Part shown: positions 2,287 through 6,504 of the stretch, piece by piece
Layout of the letters: the number at the start of each line of letters is the position of its first letter
Position numbering within the stretch: position 1 is the stretch's first letter
From: an uncultured Geobacteraceae bacterium
GTDB lineage: Bacteria; Desulfobacterota; Desulfuromonadia; Geobacterales; Pseudopelobacteraceae
Length of the DNA stretch: 38,619 bases
Reading direction: 5' to 3'
NCBI GenBank assembly: GCA_903958085.1
Contig: CAJBRY010000276.1
Location: forward strand, 1 to 38,619
Program-made: the position numbers and the translations under genes
The notes under the pieces: generated by a model
The model's input: the letters and a program-made list of their open reading frames with translations, nothing else
The model's database searches: none
What the model was told of the DNA's origin: nothing

Positions 2287-2484
2287 ATGGATGCAAGAAA
2301 TTATATGACAATCAAACAGGCGGCGGCAAAGTATCCGGCCTTTACTGAGGGGTCTTTGCGGTGGCTTTGGTTTAATGCAGATCGAAACGGTTTTTCTTCA
2401 TGTGTTCGTAAGGTCGGCAAAAAGGTTTTGATTGTGGATGAGCTTTTCTGTCAGTGGCTTGAATCAGGGTCGGCAGTCAAGTAA
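2287..2484 (+). CDS. AlpA/excisionase-like small DNA-binding protein
   Basis: This 65-residue protein begins with a helix-turn-helix of the kind seen in AlpA/Xis proteins (MTIKQAAAKYPAFTEGSLRW). A wing (KKVLIVDELFCQWLE) resembles the end of MerR/excisionase-type domains. Such proteins bend att DNA or activate element genes. It is the first gene of the replication operon. A GGGAG ribosome site precedes it, and its TAA overlaps the ATG of the next gene by one base (TAATG), implying translational coupling. Family membership is clear in shape, but the exact role (excisionase or transcription activator) is not. Confidence 0.75.
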   Translation: MDARNYMTIKQAAAKYPAFTEGSLRWLWFNADRNGFSSCVRKVGKKVLIVDELFCQWLESGSAVK

Positions 2485-3230
2485 TGGCGAACGGTGGCTA
2501 TTTCCTCATTCACCGGCGTTTCTTCAATCATTGGTTATGGGAAGAGCGCCGGAGGTACAGCCGGGCGGAGGCATGGCTTGACCTGCTACAGCAAGCCAGC
2601 TTTGCCGATGGACAGCGTTTTGTTTCCGGGTCGGTTGTACCATTGCAGCGCGGTCAGTTATTCGTTTCAACGCGGTTTCTGGCCTCACGGTGGCAGTGGA
2701 ATATTAAGTCAGTTCACCAGTTTTTGAAGCTGTTAGAGGGTGAACGCATGATTGAACAAAAGGTGAACGCAAAAGGAAACACTTTAACGCTAGTAAATTT
2801 CGAGAGTTACCAGACAAACGGAAACGCCGAAGTAAACGCGGAGGAAACGCTCAGGGGAACAAAACAAAGTAATGGTAATAAAAGGAAGATAGATAAAGGG
2901 GTTTCTGATTCTGTTTTCGAGCAGGTAGCAGGGTTTCTGAATGAGACTACAGGAAAGAATTTCAGGGCTACAGGGTCGGCATTGGTCAGGGGAGTATCGG
3001 CACGACTTAAAGAGGGGTTCACGCTCCAAGATTTTCTGAAGGTGATCGAGTTCAAGCAGAATCAATGGGGAGCAGATGCGAAGATGTCAGGCTATTTGAG
3101 ACCGGAAACATTATTCGGCAGTAAGTTTGAATCGTATCTGAATGAGGCAGGCGGAACAGCGGGCGGGTCGGTCTCTACCTGGCAGGATGAGCAGCAACGA
3201 GCGGCATTGGATGACATATTCAACGATTGA
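2484..3230 (+). CDS. Phage-type replication initiator with Phg_2220_C domain
   Basis: This 248-residue protein has an N-terminal winged-helix region (about 1-110) in which the run HRRFFNHWLWEE and the segment with VSTRFLASRWQW are typical of phage replication proteins. It ends in a domain that matches the conserved phage C-terminus (Phg_2220_C/TIGR02220 type, about 145-225) by its W-x-x-D-x-K-M and YLRPETLF...KFESYLNEA pattern. Proteins of this kind bind the phage origin and load a helicase, which fits the DnaB-like gene downstream. Translation is coupled to the AlpA-like gene by a TAATG overlap. An origin inside this gene is possible, but I saw no clear iterons. Confidence 0.8.
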   Translation: MANGGYFLIHRRFFNHWLWEERRRYSRAEAWLDLLQQASFADGQRFVSGSVVPLQRGQLFVSTRFLASRWQWNIKSVHQFLKLLEGERMIEQKVNAKGNTLTLVNFESYQTNGNAEVNAEETLRGTKQSNGNKRKIDKGVSDSVFEQVAGFLNETTGKNFRATGSALVRGVSARLKEGFTLQDFLKVIEFKQNQWGADAKMSGYLRPETLFGSKFESYLNEAGGTAGGSVSTWQDEQQRAALDDIFND

Positions 3231-3376
3231 AAACAAAAGGTACTCCCACAGCATTACATGGTGAGGGTCATGCGAACCGCGTTGTTTCTCTACATATCAA
3301 TATTTTTAGACTTGAAAAAATGACGATAGCGCCGGAAACAGCCACGACAACGAATTACAACAAAAGGCGGGCATCT

Positions 3377-3784
3377 ATGAACAGCATAAACGACACAACA
3401 AAAGCACCACACTTGCCGACACCGGCGCAAGCGGTGGCAGTGGTGGCCGGTCTCCTGGACACCGGAGCAGTCAGACGGTGGCTGTTCGGTCATATCCACA
3501 GCGAGCGGGCGGCATGTCCATATTGCGGTTGTACCGTCGAGGGTAAAGCGGCGGTAACTTTCTGGAACGGTGGCCGGGTAGCTTGCAAAGGTTGTCAACA
3601 TTACTTCACAGCGTCAACAGCAACGCCTTTCAGCAAGTCGAAACTTACTGATGAGCAGACGTTTCTTTTATTGGTCAGCATGGCCTTGAAGCTGGACACG
3701 CGAACCACGGCGGCATTGATCGGAATCAATACATCTTCTGTCCGAGAAAATCGGGCAAAAATTGAGGCACTACTACAAAACTAA
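3377..3784 (+). CDS. Zinc-ribbon/helix-turn-helix protein, transposase-accessory-like
   Basis: The likely protein is 135 residues from the ATG at 3377. A longer open frame starts with TTG at 3227 but has low-complexity extra sequence and no good ribosome site. A four-cysteine ribbon (CPYCG, then CKGCQ about 24 residues on) is followed by a helix-turn-helix-like stretch (TTAALIGINTSSVRENRAKI). This arrangement resembles the N-terminal part of InsA/IS1595-type transposase proteins but lacks a catalytic domain. Here it is more likely a small DNA-binding regulator of the element. The 146 bases between 3231 and 3376 hold nothing else that I can support. Confidence 0.6.
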   Translation: MNSINDTTKAPHLPTPAQAVAVVAGLLDTGAVRRWLFGHIHSERAACPYCGCTVEGKAAVTFWNGGRVACKGCQHYFTASTATPFSKSKLTDEQTFLLLVSMALKLDTRTTAALIGINTSSVRENRAKIEALLQN

Positions 3785-3909: not shown

Positions 3910-4061
3910 GCAGCTTTGAAAAAGCACGTCAACAAGCAGAAATCCTGCATTTATCTGGAATGAAAAAAGGTTTCGAGCAGATTGTCGAACAGCTACAGTC
4001 GAACATTGCCAAGATCGATTCACGCCTTGAAGGTCTCAGGGAGCAGCCAGCCGATGAGTAA
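3906..4061 (+). CDS. Small hypothetical protein, 51 residues, coupled to the helicase gene
   Basis: The ATG at 3906 sits behind a strong GGGAGGAG ribosome site and overlaps the previous stop. The product is helical (FEQIVEQLQSNIAKIDSRLEGL) and probably a coiled coil. It ends inside the start region of the helicase gene (ATG at 4054, this stop at 4059-4061). Place and coupling suggest a helicase-loading or replication accessory role. This is inference, because no family is recognised. Confidence 0.55.
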   Translation: MSSFEKARQQAEILHLSGMKKGFEQIVEQLQSNIAKIDSRLEGLREQPADE

Positions 4062-5445
4062 CGCCGGAGAGTTTCACGACAAACAGCTTGAAATGGAGCT
4101 GATAGGCAACCTCTTAAACGTCAATGAATCGTTTTTGGAAATCTGCGATAGCTTGCGGCCTGATGACTTCTATAATCCTGAAATGAGCCAGTGTTACCGG
4201 GCATATTCAGAACTATACGAAAAAGAGAAAATCATTGACCTGGGATATTTGGCGCGAACATCCGGCGTCAACGCCTCAATACTTGTCGAGGCAATGGACG
4301 CCGGTTTTCTGTCAGCAAATATCCAATACCGGGCGCGGCTTATCAAGACCATGAGCCAGCGGCGTAAAATACACCGGAGAGCATCACAATTATTGCAGCA
4401 AGTCGGCACTCTTGAACCGTTGGAACTTGCAAGCGGATTCAGCGACATTGCTTCTGAAATTGTACTGACAGGAGATCGGAAGCGGGTTTATTCGACATTG
4501 GAACTTTCAGAAATCGTCGAGAAGAAACAGCACGAAAGATCCACAGAACCGGGGTATATCAAAGGAATAAAGACCGGCCTGCATTACCTGGATAAGACAT
4601 TGAGAGGGTTGCAGCCAAAGAGCTTGACCTTGATTGCAGCGGCAACAGGTTTCGGCAAGACTACATTTGCACTCAATCTTTTAGCCAACATTGCCAAGCA
4701 GGGAAGGAAGATTCTGTTTATCTCCAATGAGAACGATGTCCAGATGAACCTTGACCGGCTTTCAGGCATTGCAGGGAGTAGACCACTAAAAGAGATTACC
4801 AGCGGTTTTAATCCTGAAAACGTGGTGAATGAATTTCGGCAGGCTTTCGACAGCAAGAGCATGTTTCTGTCAGATAACAGTCCAAGAACGATTGACGAAG
4901 TTTGCGGCCTGATTCGTAAATATTCCATACAGCACGGCGTCGAGGCGGTGATTTATGATTACATTGGAGAGACGGCACTTGCAGACACCGGAGAGGCAAA
5001 CCGGATTGAATCAGAAGAGCAGCGCCTTGCACGTTGGACGGCGCAACTCCTGCAAACAGCACGGGCGCAAGATGTCCATTTGATTCTTGTTGCACAATTA
5101 AACCGGCAGGGTAACGCCGGAGGAAAGCCGACAAAGACCGAGCTTGCAGGCTGTTTCCGTATGGCACAGAAAGCACACTCCATGCTTTTATTCTGGCAGG
5201 ACACAAACGGTCAGGACGTCTTGACCGTCGAGAAAAACAGAACGGGTCAGGCGGGCGTCAATATTGCGGTGACATTTAACCGGGCAAGTCAGAAGATATG
5301 GGATACCGGGCTTTATGACACCAAAGCCAAGCAGGTATTGACCAAGCAGGGAACAACACCGGCAAAGCATGACGGCAGAGCGGCGGCATCGGGTGAAAAG
5401 CCGGAGCCGGAGCGGGAAGATTTTCAGGAAGATATACCATTTTGA
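4054..5445 (+). CDS. DnaB-like replicative helicase of the element
   Basis: The 463-residue protein has a DnaB N-terminal helical domain (about 8-100), a linker, and a RecA-like ATPase domain (about 165-430). Walker A is AATGFGKTT at 196-204, Walker B lies in VIYDYIG near 300, and the motif around LVAQLNRQG near 346 matches the DnaB motif H3 region. It would unwind DNA at the element's origin, loaded by the initiator encoded upstream. The start at 4054 was chosen over an upstream TTG because it aligns with the DnaB N-terminus and overlaps the preceding small ORF. The last 50 residues are charged and probably disordered. Confidence 0.9.
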   Translation: MSNAGEFHDKQLEMELIGNLLNVNESFLEICDSLRPDDFYNPEMSQCYRAYSELYEKEKIIDLGYLARTSGVNASILVEAMDAGFLSANIQYRARLIKTMSQRRKIHRRASQLLQQVGTLEPLELASGFSDIASEIVLTGDRKRVYSTLELSEIVEKKQHERSTEPGYIKGIKTGLHYLDKTLRGLQPKSLTLIAAATGFGKTTFALNLLANIAKQGRKILFISNENDVQMNLDRLSGIAGSRPLKEITSGFNPENVVNEFRQAFDSKSMFLSDNSPRTIDEVCGLIRKYSIQHGVEAVIYDYIGETALADTGEANRIESEEQRLARWTAQLLQTARAQDVHLILVAQLNRQGNAGGKPTKTELAGCFRMAQKAHSMLLFWQDTNGQDVLTVEKNRTGQAGVNIAVTFNRASQKIWDTGLYDTKAKQVLTKQGTTPAKHDGRAAASGEKPEPEREDFQEDIPF

Positions 5446-5450
5446 GGCGG

Positions 5451-5470
5451 TTGTCCCAACGGTGGGACAA
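5451..5470. promoter_or_regulatory. Operator candidate 1 upstream of the rha-like gene
   Basis: TTGTCCCAACGGTGGGACAA is an inverted repeat with eight-base arms (TTGTCCCA/TGGGACAA), only six bases after the helicase stop. A second related site lies 47 bases on, centre to centre. Paired sites of one consensus are typical of phage repressor operators. Confidence 0.6.
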
Positions 5471-5492
5471 CTGGCAGACACCATAAAATGCG

Positions 5493-5522
5493 ATAGCTTC
5501 TCCCAACGTTGGGACAAGCTAT
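5493..5522. promoter_or_regulatory. Operator candidate 2 upstream of the rha-like gene
   Basis: The core TCCCAACGTTGGGA (5501-5514) is a perfect palindrome. Beyond one mismatched pair (C5500/C5515) the arms ATAGCTT and AAGCTAT continue the symmetry to 30 bases. It shares the GTCCCAAC/GTTGGGAC half-site with the repeat at 5451. It lies 27 bases before the rha-like ATG. No T-run follows, so an operator is preferred over a terminator, although an RNA hairpin in the leader is also possible. Confidence 0.65.
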
Positions 5523-5549
5523 TGACTGCGAAAAAAGAGAGGTGACACC

Positions 5550-6245
5550 ATGAACCAGATCGTAACGATTCAGCACCGGCAGGCGGTGACAACTTCCTTG
5601 AAGGTTGCAGATATTTTCGGGAAGAAACACAAGAGCGTATTGCAGGCAATAGAGCGGCTTTCAGCAGATTTGCCGGAAAAAGATCGGCGCAATTTTAAGC
5701 CGGTCTCTTACCTGGACACGATGAACCGGCAGCAATCCATTTATGAAATCACAAGAGACGGTTTCTCACTTCTGGCAATGGGTTTCACTGGCAAACGTGC
5801 GCTACTGTTCAAACTTCAATTTATTGAGAGCTTCAACAAAATGGAAGCGGCGCTCTTGAATCAGTTGAATCTTTCCTGGCAGGAGCAGCGAGCAGAAAGC
5901 AAAACGGCGCGGCGGGTGGCAACGGATACCATAGCGCGGTTTTGTGATTATGCAGCCGGTCAGGGTAGCACTCATGCAAGGATGTACTTTCAGAACATTA
6001 CCAAAATGACACACAAGGCGCTTTTTCTGGTCAAGCAGGCGTCTCCACAGCCTTTCAGAGATATGCTTGACGGTATGCAGCTTGCTTTCCTCACAACGGC
6101 AGAATATCTGATTCAGCAGGCGCTTGAAGATGGCATGACAGCGGCGCTTCATTATAGGGATGTTTACACACTTGCACGGCAGCGGGTCGAGCATTACGCG
6201 GCGCAACTACCACAGCAACGGCTATTGATGGCGGGCAACGGTTAG
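5550..6245 (+). CDS. Rha-family phage regulatory protein
   Basis: The 231-residue protein carries the Rha domain at about 8-105: VADIFGKKHKSVLQAIERL forms the DNA-binding helix region, and the block from YEITRDGFSLLAMGFTGKRA into FKLQFIESFNKME is characteristic of the family. Rha proteins are phage regulators that can interfere with growth of phages lacking host factor IHF and often act as antirepressors. The C-terminal half (about 110-231) is not recognised and is helical. A GAGAGGTG ribosome site precedes the ATG. Two palindromic operator candidates lie just upstream, so the gene is likely under separate control from the helicase operon. Confidence 0.85.
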   Translation: MNQIVTIQHRQAVTTSLKVADIFGKKHKSVLQAIERLSADLPEKDRRNFKPVSYLDTMNRQQSIYEITRDGFSLLAMGFTGKRALLFKLQFIESFNKMEAALLNQLNLSWQEQRAESKTARRVATDTIARFCDYAAGQGSTHARMYFQNITKMTHKALFLVKQASPQPFRDMLDGMQLAFLTTAEYLIQQALEDGMTAALHYRDVYTLARQRVEHYAAQLPQQRLLMAGNG

Positions 6246-6420: not shown

Positions 6421-6429
6421 GTAATTATT

Positions 6430-6504
6430 TGGCAGGGGTACCTGGATTCGAACCAAGAGATGACGGCGTCAGAGGCCGTTGCCTTACCGTTTGGCGATAC
6501 CCCT
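6430..6504 (-). tRNA. tRNA-Gln, anticodon CTG
   Basis: The minus-strand sequence folds as a tRNA. The acceptor stem AGGGGTA pairs with TACCCCT. The anticodon stem ACGGC/GCCGT encloses the loop CTCTGAC, whose anticodon CTG reads CAG (Gln). The T-loop is GGTTCGAATCC, and the discriminator G is followed by an encoded CCA at 6432-6430. Acceptor and TTCGAATCC positions agree with bacterial tRNA-Gln. It lies 39 bases after the stop of the oxidoreductase gamma gene on the same strand, and a terminator follows it. It is the probable integration target for the element to its left. Confidence 0.95.

Follow-up and report, generated by a model that had tools for sequence, protein, structure and literature searches.

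The spacer between the dnaB and rha-like genes of the integrative element described here contains two near-identical palindromes, one of 20 and one of 30 bases. We suggest, with a confidence that falls a little short of even, that they are an acquired pair of predicted sites for a dimeric DNA-binding protein acting on rha. The palindromes themselves constitute a locally striking, lineage-specific variant of a known site type, with a wider recurrence.

The window, i.e. the whole stretch of 38,619 nucleotides that was analysed, is one contig (G000:C276) of an 804-contig, 4.5-Mb genome assembly. The integrative element occupies its first 6.5 kb and adjoins a tRNA-Gln(CTG) gene (6430-6504). On the plus strand it carries genes for a tyrosine integrase (8-1234), a small protein (2287-2484) without a family match in Pfam or PHROGs, which by resemblance we take to be AlpA/excisionase-like, a replication initiator or helicase-loader-like protein (2484-3230; Phg_2220_C, phrog_428), a DnaB-type replicative helicase (4060-5445; the listed ORF starts at 3982 and the stop codon is at 5443-5445) and a Rha-like protein (5550-6245). 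The latter exceeds the curated cut-offs of both PF09669 (Phage_pRha; 96.9 bits versus 29.9) and TIGR02681 (103.1 versus 45.95). Two further ORFs of the element are located at 1246-1875, between the integrase and the AlpA-like ORF, and at 3227-3784, the first being unassigned and the second being called Zn-ribbon-like from inspection of its cysteines.

A 48-bp probable attachment repeat (6427-6474) overlaps the 3' part of the tRNA gene. Its identical copy was found on contig C769 (L036, 3655-3702), followed there by sequence in which, as at the element's right end, the repeat ATCAAGTGCACT occurs. We infer that the left attachment site is probably on C769 and that a stretch between this contig and the window start is missing. 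The genes beside the presumed left end of the element on C769 are ones that we take to resemble hydrogenase or complex-I genes. In the assembled sequence of this satellite- or prophage-like element (its left end being partly recovered) we recognised no gene for a phage structural protein, which makes it plausible that the element is a satellite or a remnant. A comparable set of integrase, AlpA-like and Rha genes, without structural genes, is described for the satellite AH14b in a passage of PMC4936722.

Site 1 (TTGTCCCAACGGTGGGACAA, 5451-5470) and site 2 (ATAGCTTCTCCCAACGTTGGGACAAGCTAT, 5493-5522) have their centres at 5460.5 and 5507.5, i.e. 47 bp apart. The positions, lengths and spacing given by an earlier, sequence-only reading (20 bases at 5451 and 30 bases at 5493, 47 apart) were thus confirmed, as was its one mismatched pair in site 2 (C5500/C5515); site 1, however, is not perfect, since the pair A5459/G5462, which had gone unnoted, is also mismatched. 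The 20-mers of 5451-5470 and 5498-5517 agree at 18 of 20 positions and are set in dissimilar outer flanks, and the half-site GTCCCAAC is perfect in two of the four half-sites. Both sites are located between the dnaB stop codon and the probable ribosome-binding site of rha (GAGAGGTG, 5537-5544, plus strand), which is also present in the related locus L018 (see below), and the 16-mer of site 2 ends 34 nt ahead of the rha ATG. The sites go well beyond what chance would give: with up to 3 mismatches allowed, the palindromic 20-mer was matched twice in the window, and 100 dinucleotide shuffles yielded no match at all; in the whole 4.5-Mb assembly only sites 1 and 2 were matched. Within the 300 nt before rha, the best palindrome score was 12, compared with a maximum of 10 among 1000 first-order Markov random 300-mers.

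That 20 bp are nearly identical although their surroundings differ is in favour of a dimeric protein with sequence-specific recognition, and the placement before the ribosome-binding site speaks for an effect on rha. In the mechanism that we propose, an insert of about 93 bp brought both palindromes between the dnaB stop codon and the rha ribosome-binding site and would separate rha from the short junction type seen in a relative; a dimeric protein would bind both palindromes, and its binding would alter rha expression, the pair serving as an operator or a leader site.

The history of the junction can be judged from the two nearest relatives found, L018 (CAIPTY010000080.1) and L019 (JAQTXD010000052.1), whose Rha proteins are 78% and 76% identical to that of the window, respectively. 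In both, the gene order AlpA-like, initiator, Zn-ribbon-like, DnaB, Rha is preserved. In L018 only 11 nt (TTTTGAGAGGTGACACCATG), with no palindromes, lie between the dnaB stop codon and the rha ATG, and in L019 the gap of 175 nt is filled by a small ORF; the gap in the window is 104 nt. The stretch absent from L018 (about 93 bp, 5447-5539) has GAG at both flanks (5444-5446 and 5537-5539), and its placement is ambiguous by those 3 bases. Downstream of dnaB both relatives continue with TTTTGAGAGGTGA, so that an insertion in the window lineage seems to be the simplest history. TCCCAn4TGGGA within 1 mismatch is absent from both loci, which were compared over about 10.7 kb each.

A wider survey gave the same picture. 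TCCCAn4TGGGA with 0-1 mismatch was present in none of 23 other rha upstream regions, and the core with 2 mismatches in two of them (L007, L009). These regions comprise 11 genome places (the 14 with a Rha match minus the window and two partial matches in G258; L018 and L019 are included), several of which are anchored on the match start rather than a proven start codon and one of which is a stretch of 265 nt, and 12 phages drawn from 421 phage records with a Rha match. Two Vibrio phages (L035, L241) have hairpins of other sequence upstream of rha. A second rha-like gene of the window's own genome (L016:562-1245, 61% identical) lies directly behind an AlpA-like ORF, and no palindromes of the TCCCAn4TGGGA kind were found upstream of it. 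By the method used, no close relatives of the Rha and DnaB proteins of the element were found in viral contigs.

At the genome level, the twin pattern was found in one of 277 class genomes, and a stricter version in one of 395 genomes drawn from the phylum, in each case the window's genome. Single sites with up to 2 mismatches occurred in nine other class genomes, with one match each, all with 2 mismatches, which we take for chance; G205 and G234, taken as the genomes of L018 and L019, had no site within 2 mismatches. A 110-base query for the spacer had some match at E <= 10 in 261 of the 277 class genomes, but the matches listed are short pieces, the best of them outside its own genome having an E value of 0.0028 over 22 bases. 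Three phage records (22-base matches, E 4) and one plasmid record (E 3) were also matched. With the core (0-1 mismatch) absent from the 23 upstream regions, L018 and L019 among them, and the twin pattern absent from all genomes of both sets other than the window's own, a conserved control site of rha is not supported, and within the searched set the palindromes appear to be lineage-specific. Lack of conservation in relatives is part of what the sequence-only reading had named as evidence against itself, and as far as the 23 regions go, this is what was found.

A repressor operator pair would be expected to repeat a single palindromic consensus at least twice, which the sites do, and to be conserved before the same gene in relatives, which they are not in those compared. 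A pair of sites for a dimeric protein remains the most likely reading, because the shared 20 bp lie in different flanks, and the sequence-only interpretation is partly supported. Other observations count against it. The earlier figure of about four and a half helix turns for 47 bp is right; this spacing, however, means that the two sites face opposite sides of the helix, which weakens the argument for cooperativity and speaks against a simple side-by-side cooperative contact. A consensus scan of limited sensitivity found no sigma-70-like promoter at 5446-5549, the nearest match (5586-5615) lying inside rha and occurring at about the chance rate. Neither was there a terminator-like site (a G+C-rich stem with a U-run) at 5446-5549.

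An element-encoded repressor, proposed by the sequence-only reading as the binding protein, was not recognised in the assembled part of the element, the left end of which is partly recovered. Counterparts of the AlpA-like, Zn-ribbon-like, DnaB and Rha proteins are present in both L018 and L019, and the initiator is shared as well, with 100 of its first 105 residues identical in L018 and a divergent counterpart region in L019. All five are weak candidates, because they are shared with relatives that have no sites, and the binder is probably not among them. The integrase and ORF 1246-1875, for which no counterparts were found at E 1e-3 in the loci of L018 and L019, remain as candidates together with genes in the unassembled part.

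Repressors of phages and satellites, such as those of the SaPI and lambda type, use two similar palindromic operators upstream of a regulatory gene. The window resembles these systems in its paired palindromes, but differs from them in having no recognised repressor gene or promoter match and in the half-integral spacing. A further comparison is with IHF, whose sites, to our knowledge, are not palindromes of the window's kind. A passage of PMC4936722 describes the rha gene of phage P22 as IHF-regulated, and the earlier remark that a control site before a rha gene was not described must be qualified by this report, in which rha is under a DNA-binding protein, as is proposed here for the window. 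The word stem "palindrom" has 0 occurrences in the main text of that study. Among the literature matches listed for GTCCCAACGTTGGGAC and TCCCAACGTTGGGA, the titles of which are unrelated, neither sequence occurs.

In favour of protein sites, the 16-mer recurs in viral DNA, in one group in front of Shine-Dalgarno sequences and start codons. The exact core GTCCCAACGTTGGGAC was found in 115 viral contigs versus 2 for the reversed control, and all such viral counts, including those of the twin pattern given below, are inflated by kinship among contigs. The 115 are mostly two lineages, and the enrichment thus rests on few independent events, which we put at roughly two lineages and, beside them, six contigs that stand alone (L020, L021, L022, L161, L191 and L194), against two for the control.

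The smaller lineage is one phage group of 11 contigs (L200:1888-3608, L208:6493-8929, L155:8423-9485 and 8 more), one gene of which is 57.6% identical to a gene of Roseobacter phage CRP-345. Directly before a Shine-Dalgarno sequence and start codon lie 15 of its 23 exact copies of GTCCCAACGTTGGGAC, and in the 11 different leaders printed the distance to the ATG is 17-23 nt; by the rule used, the other 8 are away from a start codon. A long AT-rich hairpin often precedes GTCCCAACGTTGGGAC, which results in a repeated two-hairpin leader. In CRP-345 the matching leader has the related GTCCAATGTTGGAC, and two more copies of a related palindrome lie inside annotated genes. These phages (L200, L208 and others) thus share with the window an identical 16-mer just before the ribosome-binding site and the presence of two hairpins. 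Unlike the window, they have as many as 4 exact copies on one contig, placed at the starts of several genes, and a first hairpin of other sequence, and when the ORFs listed for L200 900-5500 were inspected by eye, no rha was seen.

The similarity to these leaders bears on the possibility that the dnaB-rha transcript forms two stem-loops which set mRNA processing, stability or rha translation, an explanation that we consider unlikely. The RNA fold of the spacer has an energy of -42.5 kcal/mol (z -4.6), but DNA palindromes always fold as RNA, and the fold of the DNA reaches a similar significance (z -4.1). On the plus strand both stems can extend beyond the shared 20-mer, each by a G.U pair and a C-G pair (G5449.U5472 and C5448-G5473 for site 1, G5492.U5523 and C5491-G5524 for site 2), and the stem of site 2 can be further extended by ATAGC/GCTAT. 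The hairpin centres of the phage leaders are 47.5 nt apart (one leader measured) versus 47 here; against this, the first hairpin of the comparison phages differs in sequence and the CRP-345 leader folds differently. Moreover, structure alone would not need the near-identity of the two sites, and no Rfam family matched there at E values of up to 5.

The larger lineage suggests a different function. In 98 of the 115 contigs, a tblastn match to the initiator gene of L132 contains GTCCCAACGTTGGGAC or comes within 250 bp of it, and 3-8 half-sites GTNCCAAC, including the two of the palindrome itself, are present within 250 bp. The L132 initiator protein has its best match in phrog_6643 (replication initiation, 1.5e-157) and also matches O-like families; among phage records, this type of initiator is found in Acinetobacter phages, where it is annotated as "replication protein". 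In these Acinetobacter-type prophages (L132:4537-5499 and 97 further contigs; L239:1925) an array of GTNCCAAC ends in a full palindrome at the initiator gene, and such arrays are possibly the origin of those prophages. According to a passage of PMC7466680, lambda O in dimeric form recognises imperfect inverted repeats of 19 bp, of the type ATCCCTCAAAACGAGGGA. The sites of lambda O and its relatives, including those of L132 and L239, are inverted repeats with TCCC/GGGA arms, like the window sites, and the Acinetobacter set has the half-site GTCCCAAC in common with the window and the identical 16-mer once; its arrays, however, are inside the initiator gene, and the window has two sites in the dnaB-rha spacer.

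With this precedent, the palindromes might be iteron-like sites for a winged-helix, O-like initiator, acting as a second origin of the element or as targets for the initiator of an incoming or helper phage. The gene directly upstream of them is dnaB. In addition, a looser twin TCCCAn4TGGGA pattern was commoner in viral contigs than its scrambled control (51 versus 16 contigs; a stricter pattern with a TGGGACA end was found in 7), and many of the pairs are inside helix-turn-helix initiator-like ORFs. Of 73 proteins scanned at or beside test pairs (out of 113 listed, near-duplicate loci and some further ORFs having been dropped), 8 match phrog_270 (replication initiation), and other initiator families lead the list; the 23 control proteins, all those listed, included no initiation family among the 25 families shown out of 52, a comparison in which the set sizes differ (73 versus 23). 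We nevertheless regard such an origin-type role as improbable. Iterons of the O type would be expected in or beside the cognate initiator gene, whereas here just two sites lie about 2.2 kb from the initiator gene; such iterons would also be expected to be conserved together with the DNA-binding domain of the initiator, whereas L018, with its near-identical first 105 residues, has no sites within 1 mismatch in its 10.7-kb locus. The initiator gene has its own GNAAACGC-type repeats in the linker (window 2740-2930; L018:1940-2120, with a 12-bp difference between the two), possibly the element's own iterons, and this weakens the origin reading further, as does the lack of significant BLASTP similarity between the window and L132 initiators, although a foreign initiator may still be involved. 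In L019 the initiator N-terminus is divergent and other repeats are present, as if initiator and repeats change together.

It is quite doubtful that the palindromes are only a small neutral or selfish sequence in a tolerant junction, without a role in rha expression. Their restriction to one lineage, the possible 3-bp duplication of GAG and the different sequence of L019 at the same junction would agree with this, as would viral palindrome pairs inside coding sequence, e.g. in the antirepressor (Ant) genes of L061 (8709-8749) and L072 (2210-2257). On the other hand, the rha ribosome-binding site is kept, and with no further copy of the 20-mer within 3 mismatches in the assembly and no other twin pair in the 277 class genomes, there is no sign of a multiplying repeat family. 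On the same grounds, a transposon or REP-like family was rejected, and a host regulon was rejected because the assembly has only the two sites at up to 3 mismatches. At L041:7269-7381, six TCCCAn4TGGGA palindromes lie in different reading frames of one ORF, which suggests that this array is under selection as DNA and not as peptide. A protein-level reading of the motif (a VPTxG peptide, as in L022) was dropped, as the L041 copies are in differing frames and the window sites come after the stop codon of dnaB and before the start of rha.

That the GTCCCAAC pair represents borrowed origin half-sites recognised by the O-like initiator of an incoming phage, whose arrival would thereby be sensed at the dnaB-rha junction and would trigger or redirect both element replication and Rha expression, seems to us very improbable.

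If, as we tentatively favour, the palindromes are protein sites and the pair controls rha, the element would have acquired a control site at a phage-type regulator gene that is open to testing, with the two relatives as ready-made comparisons in which the site is missing. One phage group has the 16-bp palindrome at its initiator genes and another has it as a repeated leader ahead of genes, and this recurrence would fit a portable binding site common to unrelated mobile elements.
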